DNA from: Richelia intracellularis
GTDB taxonomy: Bacteria; Cyanobacteriota; Cyanobacteriia; Cyanobacteriales; Nostocaceae
Assembly: GCA_000613065.1 (NCBI GenBank)
Contig: CBZS010000135.1
Location: forward strand, 1 to 53,332
Reading direction: 5' to 3'
Length of the DNA stretch: 53,332 bases
Shown here: one piece after another, positions 5,020-50,245 of the stretch
Position numbering within the stretch: position 1 is the stretch's first letter
Layout of the letters: each line of letters begins with the position of its first letter
Program-made: the position numbers and the translations under genes
Notes under the pieces: generated by a model
Database searches by the model: none
What the model was told of the DNA's origin: nothing
Seen by the model: the letters and a program-made list of their open reading frames with translations, nothing else

Positions 5020-5038
5020 TATTGGATGTTCAATATTG

Positions 5039-5130
5039 GGCGTTGCATAAGTGCGGGATGAATTAGCGTTTGAAACCATTTCTCAATGGTTTCAAATTTA
5101 GTGAAATCATCCCCTGATTCAGTCTATGCC
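5039..5130 (-). mobile_element. MITE copy 1 (about 92 bp, 8-bp TSD)
   Basis: Begins GGCGTTGCATAAGTGCGGG and is flanked by the 8-bp direct repeat CAATATTG (5031-5038 and 5131-5138). It belongs to the five-copy family also seen at 21459, 26658, 28166 and 34788, in reverse orientation relative to copies 2, 3 and 5. The centre holds the hairpin TTTGAAACCATT/AATGGTTTCAAA. The right tip departs from the family: it reads CAGTCTATGCC instead of CAGCAACGCC, and that altered tip is the reverse complement of GGGCATAGACTG at 5149-5160. It sits 19 bp after the treZ stop. Confidence 0.85.
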
Positions 5131-12044: not shown

Positions 12045-13316
12045 CTATTGACAAGGGGGTTGAGAGGTCTCATCATGTTGGGATAAACAAGCAGTAAGAA
12101 CAGTCAGCATATAATTCTTATCCATAGCGGCTCCATTAGATTTTTGGCGATTACTACGTTTCAAAGATTGCTGTAGGTTTAAAGCATTAAGAGCTATTCG
12201 CCCCATAAGTGCTAAGTTTTGTGGAGCATGACCAGTACGGACACCACAAGCATCTTCAGAAAAAGTGACATCTAAAGTCCAATGCAACCGATTTTCCACA
12301 CCCCAATGAAGACGAATCACTTGTCCTAAGTTACGAGTATAACAATTTAAACTAGTTAGATAAAACTGAACTTCACCCACGGGTTGTTTGATTCCAAAGA
12401 TGTGGTACCCGCACAACCATCACAACCCATTTAAGACCAACCCAATTGTCTTGGTTATGCAAAGTTTGCAGTTGAGAAATAGGAACACACCAAATTTGAC
12501 GTTTTTCAGTACGATGATGACCTTTCTCTACCCGTTTATCATAACTATGGATAATATCTTTAAAGCCTTGAGATAACTGTTGCTAAAATCAATTTTTCAC
12601 TTGTCCGTAAAGTGTAGGATGATTACCTTTGAGTGCTAAAACATAATTTGCTTTTGCATTCAATATTTGGGATGCAATTGCTGTTTGCGTACCCATGGCA
12701 TCAATGGTAATAATACATCCAGCCATGTCTAATAATTCCAATAATGCAGGGATTGCTGTAATTTCATTCCATTGATTTATCGTCTTGTTTTACTTGTCCT
12801 AAAACAAGACGATAAATCAATCGACCATGCACTAACTAGATGTAACCCTGATTTACCCTGTTCTATATCATAGGAATCTTTGAGGGTCTTACCATCAATG
12901 GGAATTACCTGTGCTCCTGGGGCTTCAACTATTGATTCTACCCAACGTGGAAAGCATCCCTCAAATACTTTTGGGTTAATGGGTTTAAACACCCGTCGAA
13001 ACGTATCTGCACTTGGGATGCCCTCTGGTAAAGCTAAAAACTGCTCCAACCAGTCGTATTTACTCAATCCATAATTTTCCATGTCCTCCCATCCCTTACC
13101 TCCTGGAATCACTGATAGTATTCCAATGATTAAAATATCTGTTAATAAATGGACACGAGTTCTTTCTACAGCTCGGTCTTGTATCTCACTAAAAACTAAT
13201 GACATCTTTTCTGTCAATGCAGTGGCATTGGCTATACTCAATTTTTTTGAGCTTTTAATCTTTGGTTTTGAAGATTTGAAACCCGTAGGCGCAAGCCTTC
13301 TTGTCAGAGATACCAT
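12045..13316 (-). pseudogene. ISAs1 family (H-repeat-like) transposase remnant
   Basis: N-terminal part 13316 to 12777: LTDILIIGILSVIPGGKGWEDM, LPEGIPSADTFRRVF, VIPIDGKTLKDSYD and LHLVSAWS. C-terminal part 12416-12045: VIRLHWGVENRLHWTLDVTF and APQNLALMGRIALNALNLQQ. Both are standard ISAs1 blocks. The middle (about 12417-12830) is in several frames with stops. At 12771-12821 a perfect hairpin replaces the codons before VLGQVK. No confident terminal repeats were found; AAGGGCATCTC at about 12029 may be one end. Confidence 0.8.
12771..12821. repeat. Perfect 22-bp inverted repeat inside the ISAs1 pseudogene
   Basis: The arms 12771-12792 and 12800-12821 are exact reverse complements (inner part CGTCTTGTTTTA / TAAAACAAGACG) with the 7-nt loop CTTGTCC. 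On the minus strand the second arm keeps the transposase codons for VKQDDKS. The first arm replaces about ten nucleotides of ancestral coding sequence and shifts the frame. Confidence 0.9.
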
Positions 13317-21265: not shown

Positions 21266-21458
21266 TTGCTAGTTAAACCCAATCTAAATAGTACTGACGA
21301 GATCACATTCTACATACTTGATGTCAAGTGAAGGAAGAAGGAAGAGCAGCCGAGTGGAGGAACAGAGGGAGAAAACTTTTATTGGGACTGTCTTCAATGA
21401 ATGTTAGAGATAAAGGTTCCGGCATGAATTAGGTTTACTATTGATCTAATTAATTTTC

Positions 21459-21549
21459 GGCGTTGCTGAATCAGGGGATAATTTCACTAAATTTTCAACG
21501 ATTTCTCAATGGTTTCAAACCCTAATTCATCCCGCACTTATGCAACGCC
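21459..21549 (+). mobile_element. MITE copy 2 (91 bp, 8-bp TSD) in the blaI leader
   Basis: Begins GGCGTTGCTGAATCAGGGG and ends CACTTATGCAACGCC. It is flanked by TAATTTTC on both sides (21451-21458 and 21550-21557). It ends 44 bp before the likely ATG of the blaI-like gene. An in-frame ATG at 21540 lies within the MITE and is not the native start. Confidence 0.92.
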
Positions 21550-21593
21550 TAATTTTCTTCTGTTGTGATTGTTCTCCTCATTTATTTTTCAAC

Positions 21594-26611: not shown

Positions 26612-26657
26612 ACGAGGTAAGATGTGGGAGGGGTTGATACTTGCTACTTGGCTATTG

Positions 26658-26748
26658 GGCGTTGCTGAATCAGGGGATGATTTCACTAAATTTTCAAGGA
26701 TTTATCAATGGTTTCAAACGCTAATTCATCCCGCACTTATGCAACGCC
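26658..26748 (+). mobile_element. MITE copy 3 (91 bp) inside the mrp operon
   Basis: Starts GGCGTTGCTGAATCAGGGG and ends GCACTTATGCAACGCC like copies 2 and 5. The flanks GGCTATTG and GACTTCGC do not match, so the target duplication has been lost or the copy arose by recombination. It lies in the 211-bp gap between mrpG and the DUF4040 gene, where the rest of the operon overlaps by 4 bp. Confidence 0.88.
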
Positions 26749-28045: not shown

Positions 28046-28459
28046 GGATGAAAGATGTGCAGAAAAATATTGGTGGATTTTACTTAACCCCCAAACATAA
28101 CCGACATTATTCTCCTAACTTTTCCCATTCATTGGGAAGCAAATTTGCAATTAGCTCAAAACCCTGGCGTTGCATAAGTGCGGGATGAATTAGCGTTTGA
28201 AACTATTGAGAAATCGTTGAAAATTTAGTGAAATCATCCCGCACTTATGCAACGCCAAAACCCTTACTATCGGGCTTAATAACATAAGTCATACGTCTTC
28301 AGAAACGATCGCAGTATTGTTAAATTTTGGAGGAACACAAGTTAATATTGGAGAGGAGAATCCCAAATATTGAGATTCAGAGTGCAGAGAGAAGCACCCT
28401 ACAGTCGGAGCGTGTGGTTCTATGGAGCCACTGCATTCTCCAGATTCCCTCGGTTGTAG
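28046..28459. other. Gap after mrpB with MITE copy 4
   Basis: No gene recognised. It contains MITE copy 4 (28166-28256) and ends at the 6-bp target duplication (TTGTAG, 28454-28459) of the IS1634-like element. Confidence 0.6.
28166..28256 (-). mobile_element. MITE copy 4 (91 bp, perfect 23-bp TIRs, 8-bp TSD)
   Basis: The first and last 23 bp are exact inverted repeats (GGCGTTGCATAAGTGCGGG... at the left). It is flanked by AAAACCCT at 28158-28165 and 28257-28264. Unlike copies 2, 3 and 5, both tips carry the same end type, so it is a symmetrised variant. Confidence 0.93.
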
Positions 28460-34787: not shown

Positions 34788-34878
34788 GGCGTTGCTGAAT
34801 CAGGGGATGATTTCACTAAATTTGAAACCATTGAGAAATGGTTTCAAACGCTAATTCATCCCGCACTTATGCAACCCC
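34788..34878 (+). mobile_element. MITE copy 5 (91 bp, 8-bp TSD) in the 3' end of hpf
   Basis: Starts GGCGTTGCTGAATCAGGGG and ends CACTTATGCAACCCC. Flanked by CAGAAACA at 34780-34787 and 34879-34886. The centre is a perfect hairpin TTTGAAACCATT-GAGA-AATGGTTTCAAA. It supplies the last five codons and stop of the HPF gene. Confidence 0.95.
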
Positions 34879-35503
34879 CAGAAACATAATCATGTATGGC
34901 TTTACGATTCTTATGGTTGCCATTGGTTTTATTAGGGTTGCGTGGCTGAATTACACCATAACCACCGTGGTTACGTTGATAGATGACGTTAATTTCTCCA
35001 GTTTTGCTATTGTGAAACATATAAAAATCATGTCCCACCATTTGCAGTTGTTCTAAAGCCTCACCAATAGTCATCGGTGGCATGGCAAAATATTTAGTAC
35101 GAACCACTTCATTGGGAAGTTCTGGAGTGCGAACGCCAATTAAATCTTCGACAATATTTTCTGTAGCAACAACCTCATTAGTTGGTTGAGCTTGGGTTTT
35201 CTTGTTTTGACGGCGTTCTTTATACTTACGTAGTTGACGAGCAATTTTATCTGCCACTAAATCTATACTGGCATAGAGATTTTCGCTACTTTCTTCAGCA
35301 CGAATAACACTTCCATTTGTAAAGATTGTCACTTCTGCTGACTGTTTTGTTGTGATCCTAGGATTCTTAGCCACACTAAGATGCACATCCACTTCATTAG
35401 TGATGTTTTGGAAATGATTCACCGCTTTTTCTATTTTTTGATGCACATATTCTCTAATTGCATCGGTGATTTCAATATTTTTTCCGTGGATGACAAGCTT
35501 CAT
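34856..35503 (-). CDS. hpf: Long-form ribosome hibernation promoting factor (HPF/LrtA) with MITE-derived C-terminus
   Basis: Protein of 215 aa. The N-terminal RaiA-type ribosome-binding domain ([20 protein letters not shown] to about residue 100, with [19 protein letters not shown]) and the C-terminal dimerisation domain (about 130-190; [33 protein letters not shown]) are intact. In cyanobacteria this is LrtA, which forms inactive 100S ribosome dimers in the dark or under stress. The last residues GGCISAG and the stop come from MITE copy 5. Removing the element and one duplication restores ...HDYVSASEASPSHK and a native stop. Since both domains precede the insertion, activity is probably retained. 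Confidence 0.93.
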
Positions 35504-36682: not shown

Positions 36683-37409
36683 TTGGCAGTTGGTGGTTGA
36701 TTTACCCACGTCACCCTCTCCCTCTACTCCTTTCCTAAAGCACCCGGTGGTGATGACTTACCAGCTAATCCAATTAAAGCGAGTAGCGCGATCGCATAAA
36801 GTAGCATAATTAAAAATTGGTAGGGGATACTGGCTCCTAATGCTTGCATTCTCAACTGCAAAGCATCTGTGCCTCCAAATAGTAAACTAGCTAAGGTACT
36901 AGCAACAGGATGCCATCTACCAAAAATTAAAGCTGCGCTCGCAATAAATCCTTTACCTGCACTCATCCCCTCAGAAAATATTTTACCTGGACTAAGCTCA
37001 AGTACGCTCCTCCCAAGCTGGCAAGGCAGACACTCATTACAACTGCTAAGTAACGCACCTTTATCACCGAAATACCTGAATATGTAGCCGCTTGGGGATA
37101 TTCTCCCACTGTTCGCAAGGTTAAACTGGGGTGAGTATAAAACAAAAAATAAGTGGTGGCGATGACAATAATTATTAGTAAATATACGAAAATATCCTGT
37201 TGAAATATTACTTTCCCAATTATGGGTATATCCGCAAGATAGGGGATATTCAAGGGTGGAATGGCAGGTAATCTCTGGGTACGACCTCCGGCAAAGATAA
37301 TTCAGGGAGAGAAAGAAGTCAAACCCACAGGAACCAAATTAATAGCCAAGCCAGATACCAACTAGTTTAGACCCAAACCCACACATAAAAAACCATGGAG
37401 TAAACCTAC

Positions 37410-37440
37410 TATACCCCCCACAATTCTTGTGGGGGGTATA
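37410..37440. repeat. Perfect 14-bp inverted repeat, 3-nt loop, in the ABC permease pseudogene
   Basis: TATACCCCCCACAA (37410-37423) and TTGTGGGGGGTATA (37427-37440). On the minus strand one arm keeps the codons for IVGGI and the other replaces ancestral codons upstream of it. Confidence 0.9.
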
Positions 37441-37452
37441 GCCAACCAGGGA

Positions 37453-37482
37453 TTACCAGTGCCGCGATCGCGGCACTGGTAA
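37453..37482. repeat. Perfect 30-bp palindrome without loop, centred on HIP1
   Basis: Both halves from TTACCAGTGCCGCGA outward are exact complements; the centre is GCGATCGC. On the minus strand it encodes TSAAIAALV of the broken permease. The frameshift of that gene lies at or just beyond its lower-coordinate edge. Confidence 0.9.
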
Positions 37483-37664
37483 AAGCTCCTGTGAGTAACA
37501 TTCCTTCTAAGGCAATATTTAATACCCCAGAACGTTCTGAGTACATCCCTCCCAAAACTGCCAATGCCAGTGGTACAGTTAGGCGTATAGTTGCAACTAA
37601 GTAATCGGTGAAAAAGTCGAGGGTGTAAATTGCGGTCATCGGCCTATATTTCAGTAGTTTATCC

Positions 37665-50211: not shown

Positions 50212-50245
50212 TAGAAAAAGAGACGCGTTCGCGTCTCTTTTTCTA
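50212..50245. terminator. Terminator after jag
   Basis: The 16-bp arms TAGAAAAAGAGACGCG and CGCGTCTCTTTTTCTA are separated by TT (in practice a GTTC-type tetraloop). The right arm includes a T-run. It closes the rpmH-jag cluster. Confidence 0.9.

Follow-up and report, generated by a model that had tools for sequence, protein, structure and literature searches.

Two perfect palindromes in a broken ABC permease gene of Richelia intracellularis, very probably products of template-switch mutations

Two perfect palindromes, 11 bp apart, lie within a broken ABC permease gene of the cyanobacterium Richelia intracellularis. Judging from the sequences compared, both are very probably products of short template-switch (quasipalindrome) mutations that would have occurred during DNA synthesis. 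The window, i.e. the whole stretch of DNA analysed here, is contig C135 (53,332 nt) of a 5.49-Mb source genome (G000) assembled in 857 contigs, and its cyanobacterium is probably a diatom symbiont. The nearest named relatives found with the permease gene are Calothrix rhizosoleniae SC01 (L021, 90% to the window) and two Calothrix MAGs (L019 and L020, 86%). These three close relatives carry intact orthologues, which served as the comparison set. One 3.2-Mb genome (G001) is a genus-mate of the source genome, and the permease gene found no match in it. The source strain is probably RC01 and the genus-mate probably R. euintracellularis HH01, strain names that appear in PMC12596568.

The two palindromes compared with intact orthologues

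The features of the locus are given in Table 1. The start of the permease gene is that of the listed open reading frame, and its low end is approximate.

Table 1. Permease gene, palindromes and lesions in the window
Feature	Position	Strand	Basis or comparison
Broken ABC permease gene (BPD_transp_2, PF02653)	36721..37639	-	Pfam, orthologue alignment
Further lesion, one base missing vs orthologues (-1)	near 36975	-	Orthologue alignment
Further lesion, TGA stop in frame with the orthologue	37302..37304	-	Orthologue comparison
Further lesion, TAG stop in frame with the orthologue	37362..37364	-	Orthologue comparison
Palindrome 1, putative template arm (little changed)	37409..37423	+	1, 2 and 2 of 15 differences vs L021, L019 and L020
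Palindrome 1, loop TTC (3 nt)	37424..37426		Sequence
Palindrome 1, putatively rewritten arm	37427..37441	+	9, 7 and 8 of 15 differences vs L021, L019 and L020
Palindrome 2, loop-free, 30 bp, 15+15 nt (37453-37467 / 37468-37482)	37453..37482		Inverted-repeat search, orthologue alignment
HIP1 octamer GCGATCGC	37464..37471		Same place in L019, L020 and L021

At both palindromes, the bases that differ from the relatives are accounted for by the opposite arm. The arms of palindrome 1 measure 15 nt each and are 100% complementary in the inverted-repeat search. The preliminary description had recognized this perfect hairpin with its 3-nt loop and the adjacent position of the two palindromes, but it gave the arm as 14 nt and the spacing as 12 bp. 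Because a perfect hairpin forces all differences to match the other arm, the telling part is their location in one arm. The orthologue alignment that had been proposed as a check was made, and it places the changes of palindrome 1 predominantly in a single arm, where they match the opposite one. This arm is more diverged than its partner in all 54 aligned rows (mean 9.6 vs 4.6), some of which represent the same genome under two identifiers and from which three window-derived loci were omitted. The length of palindrome 1 is that of the orthologues and the alignment resumes in its flanks. On the gene strand, the little-changed arm encodes IVGGI, as in the SC01 orthologue, while AIPPTR stands for GIIVTA in the other arm when the orthologue's frame is read by eye; a conserved motif in one arm and replaced residues in the other had been correctly noticed before. 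The relatives offer only weak pairing as a precursor, namely a shared TATA. The loop bases are unlike those of all three near relatives, and the last base of the palindrome requires either that the return was mismatched or that this base changed independently.

Palindrome 2, rightly described earlier as a loop-free 30-bp palindrome centred on HIP1, has a more evident precursor. Its site in SC01 is an older quasipalindrome with perfect 9-nt outer arms around HIP1, and in L019 and L020 the outer arms have one mismatch (8 of 9 paired). The change relative to SC01 is one contiguous replacement of six bases by two: on the + strand, the TAAAAA that lies between TTACCAGTG and HIP1 in SC01 became CC in the window, a net loss of 4 nt. 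On the gene strand, the window reads TTACCAGTGCCGCGATCGCGGCACTGGTAA and SC01 reads TTACCAGTGCCGCGATCGCTTTTTACACTGGTAA, the replacement of TTTTTA by GG being dictated by the opposite arm. The support from palindrome 2 consists of few bases, two templated ones plus the change in length. Across 53 rows, divergence is greater in its left arm (+ strand) 32 times, in the right arm 13 times and in neither 8 times, a comparison in which distant relatives align poorly.

No orthologue compared has either palindrome, so that none with an intact frame carries the pair, and the three intact orthologues contain no perfect hairpin with an arm of 9 nt or more. More broadly, neither palindrome is present in any of the 297 other loci compared, many of which are unrelated stretches.

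Loss of the reading frame

The frame had been said to be lost exactly at the palindromes. This agrees with the alignment, in which the 4-nt deficit at palindrome 2 is the first indel in gene order relative to the three intact orthologues, and the reading frame is lost there. This deficit is sufficient to break the frame. The further proposal that palindrome extension itself inactivated the gene is possible in that respect; palindrome 2 may have preceded the TAG, the TGA and the -1 lesion (Table 1), and so have inactivated the gene first, or may have followed them. Palindrome 1 alone would place two prolines and an arginine in a membrane protein. The end of the pseudogene also differs from that of SC01.

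With the palindromes masked, the window differs at 125 of 711 sites that are identical in the three relatives. Of these differences, 34 fall on the 248 first codon positions, 17 on the 262 second positions and 74 on the 201 third positions. The changes private to SC01 number 7, 4 and 17, respectively. The second-to-third position ratio is therefore 0.18 in the window and about 0.24 in SC01. Such a ratio is typical where selection has acted on a gene along most of its branch, so the permease gene was lost recently.

Template switching and other explanations

What the polymerase did, on which strand, with which anchors and in what order is inferred from these alignments. For palindrome 1, the growing + strand, having copied positions 37409-37423, would have taken its own arm as template instead of the parental strand. 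The fold-back would leave the 3-nt loop, the downstream arm would be overwritten in register, and the return to the parental strand may have occurred near the shared TATA. For palindrome 2, the older quasipalindrome (TTACCAGTG ... HIP1 ... CACTGGTAA) would have become perfect when synthesis moved to the complementary strand, entering at the 9-nt arm and returning at HIP1, whose octamer is self-complementary, or the other way round, which would have turned six bases into two. HIP1 predates palindrome 2 and could have served as an anchor for the strand switch. A strict fold-back is unlikely here because the loop is absent, and a switch to the other strand is needed. Fold-back templated rewriting, as advanced in the preliminary description, is supported by the one-arm changes of palindrome 1 and by the perfecting of a quasipalindrome at palindrome 2, but a simple fold-back probably did not produce the latter.

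The use of the nascent strand as template, by which a quasipalindrome becomes more perfect, is outlined in PMC7202029 as an established class of mutation, and lacZ reporters in E. coli, as summarized in PMC6357072, score a templated 4-bp deletion. In outline, the quasipalindrome mutations of E. coli, phage T4 and yeast (PMC7202029, PMC6357072) resemble the present case in that an imperfect repeat is perfected from the opposite arm, and the 4-bp loss of the lacZ reporters (PMC6357072) recurs in palindrome 2. Unlike in those systems, the events are recognized here by comparison of species and not by experiment, they are two and adjacent, and one of them would have the HIP1 octamer of cyanobacteria as its anchor. 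Short template switches have also been recognized by genome comparison in yeast genes (PMC8604942), in great apes and in RNA hairpins (PMC7954356, PMC8794818). As those sources present them in summary, the likeness lies in one switch explaining changes of several bases and in the homogenisation of arms in coding sequence, while the present case concerns a bacterial symbiont and an inactivated gene. Perfect inverted repeats within protein-coding sequence are likewise reported in outline for Nematomorpha (PMC6649704), where they lie in mitochondrial genes and, unlike those described here, reach 284 bp. Among the matches listed from the open-licence literature (titles and abstract openings), none concerned template-switch or quasipalindrome mutations in cyanobacteria or diatom symbionts, and template switching combined with pseudogenes gave no match in the open-licence literature. 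The correction of a quasipalindrome by strand switching is also said to have been described by Rosche et al. in 1997; that study and Ripley 1982 are cited in the papers on quasipalindrome mutation named above.

Alternatively, both palindromes could have arisen by chance, through unconnected point mutations plus one small indel as the gene decayed. The gene is indeed broken and carries many other substitutions, and palindrome 2 alone requires few changes. However, in 6000 simulated neutral divergences from the three intact orthologues (25% substitution, 1% indels), 46 runs gave a hairpin with an arm of 10-12 nt and none gave an arm longer than 12 nt or two hairpins. Under independent 25% substitution, the palindrome-1 arm, with nine specific changes and six unchanged sites, has a log10 probability of -10.5 before correction for the possible places of occurrence. 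The origin of the two palindromes by chance is therefore very improbable. In the window as a whole, 11 perfect hairpins (arm of at least 10 nt, loop up to 8 nt) were counted, their arms ranging from 10 to 22 nt, compared with a total of three, each with an arm of 10 nt, in ten first-order Markov copies of it.

Several other hairpins of the window are intergenic or part of dispersed repeats, and the two palindromes might similarly serve as a terminator or in regulation, or belong to a palindromic repeat that is dispersed in the genome. An exact search of the genome with the palindrome-1 arm and a search with the palindrome-2 core allowing up to 3 mismatches nevertheless each returned a single occurrence, inside the permease gene. 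Nor are the palindromes insertions, since palindrome 1 keeps the length and palindrome 2 loses 4 nt; the window has no Rfam match at gathering score, and the absence from the 297 loci points the same way. A functional or mobile hairpin is accordingly the least credible of the readings considered, with hardly any probability left to it. A dispersed palindromic repeat of the MITE or REP type, which should exist in many copies, was rejected as a candidate, the palindromes being single-copy. The best explanation is template-switch rewriting, a known class of mutation to which the locus would add one more case.

A dispersed repeat of about 85 bp does occur in the window, at 5037-5122, 34795-34880, 26653-26748, 21449-21556 and 28166-28240, and the matches listed for the sampled genome include many further copies. 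Of those in the window, two that are oppositely oriented share the perfect hairpin TTTGAAACCATT. An intergenic 16-nt hairpin with the core GAGACGCG lies at 50212-50245; its arm-difference counts are mixed, and the relatives L103 and L107 carry related hairpins there whose loops differ.

Hairpins across genomes and exonuclease VII

A census of perfect hairpins (arm of at least 12 nt, loop of at most 8 nt) was made with reading frames of at least 120 codons. It covered 870 kb of the source genome, 631 kb of the genus-mate, 231 kb of SC01 and 663 kb in 73 loci of other cyanobacteria, which all surround the permease gene and are thus not a random sample. Within reading frames, 11 hairpins were found in 547 kb of the source genome, 9 in 355 kb of the genus-mate, none in 175 kb of SC01 and 2 in 535 kb of the other cyanobacteria. 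For both symbionts against the rest, this amounts to 20 in 903 kb vs 2 in 710 kb (binomial P 0.0008, which becomes 0.002 when two variants of one IS are left out and 0.004 when four transposase hairpins are). Outside reading frames, the densities per 100 kb were 9.3 in the source genome, 12.7 in SC01, 16.3 in the other comparators and 29.0 in the genus-mate, so that only the genus-mate has an excess there and the source genome has none. In the plasmids of 'Nostoc azollae', taken as a second test and conceivably belonging to G015 (see below for its lack of exonuclease VII), 10 hairpins were counted in 121.9 kb vs 1 in 100 kb of a Trichormus variabilis plasmid, with 1 vs 1 in frame.

Pfam domains span the hairpin in six genes, i.e. 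GDPD, MoaE and an interrupted PBP-like gene in the source genome, and a PF04029 phosphatase, Ni_insertion (C-terminal part) and SepF in the genus-mate. The hairpins of SepF (L282, 2864-2891, G001) and MoaE (L267, 4386-4425, G000) are perfect and lie within conserved domains of open frames. Among the matches listed, the other hairpins that could be aligned are mostly not clean one-arm rewrites. The two arms differ at 4 and 3 of 14 positions in L155 (GDPD), 3 and 5 of 13 in L195 (Ni_insertion), 2 and 3 of 14 in L194, 3 and 2 of 12 in L168, and 2 and 3 of 20 in L210 (outside frames). For L140 (PBP-like), the counts are 6 and 2 of 15 vs one relative and 6 and 5 vs another. The window repeat at 5069 has 0 and 5 of 12 vs one copy and 1 and 2 vs another, these being dispersed copies and not surely orthologues.

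Other long hairpins were also encountered. The genus-mate has a loop-free perfect palindrome with 34-nt arms outside long frames (L209, 15065-15132) and one with 26-nt arms and a 1-nt loop within a subtilase gene (L277, 4406-4458). In the window, an IS transposase-like gene contains a 22-nt perfect hairpin with a 7-nt loop at 12771-12821. At least 40 places of the genome match the 291-bp IS region with this hairpin at 95-100% (40 of 112 candidates scored). In each of the 40, an inverted self-match spans the hairpin at 80-100%. No match to this IS was found in the genus-mate (40 of 112 candidates scored). Two IS-related hairpins of other length occur in L251 and L253.

These data bear on whether the palindromes of the permease gene could be chimeric or fold-back copies made by whole-genome amplification or assembly. 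Whole-genome amplification produces inverted chimeras, the assembly is in 857 contigs, and the in-frame excess is found in two symbiont assemblies and not in SC01, a pattern that could also stem from differing library methods. Against this, the sequence is back in register with the gene within 15 nt, and other hairpins stand in frame within conserved domains, although the census counted open frames only. Moreover, the many matches of the IS region show that this hairpin at least is inherited. An artefact at the permease gene is thus improbable, and template switching remains the preferred reading of its palindromes.

The exonuclease VII large (TIGR00237) and small (TIGR01280) subunits are both missing from the same four of 21 genomes: the source genome, the genus-mate, G014 and G015. 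Apart from the source genome and the genus-mate, 17 of 19 genomes possess both. With completeness at 95.8% for the source genome and 88% for the genus-mate, absence from both through incompleteness is unlikely. Loss of SbcD was rejected as a cause, SbcD (TIGR00619) being present in all 21 genomes. In E. coli, exonucleases I and VII reportedly suppress such mutations (Viswanathan and Lovett). Conceivably, the loss of exonuclease VII made the symbiont lineage a natural template-switch mutator, in which fold-back and strand-switch errors, otherwise cleared by the enzyme, would write perfect hairpins into genes, killing some, altering others in frame and driving part of the genome erosion. We regard this broader scenario as doubtful, and the causal link between exonuclease VII loss and hairpin excess as a hypothesis. 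One rival is relaxed selection in the symbiont, which would let hairpins stand in reading frames and is favoured by the lack of an excess outside frames in the source genome; another is an amplification artefact behind the in-frame excess.

Taken together, the permease gene would provide a natural instance of a palindrome-perfecting mutation that breaks the frame of a bacterial gene, in which intact relatives reveal the earlier state. What deserves testing is the possible connection with the loss of exonuclease VII. If the wider pattern of in-frame hairpin excess and absent exonuclease VII holds, these symbionts would be a natural experiment on the suppression of template switching.
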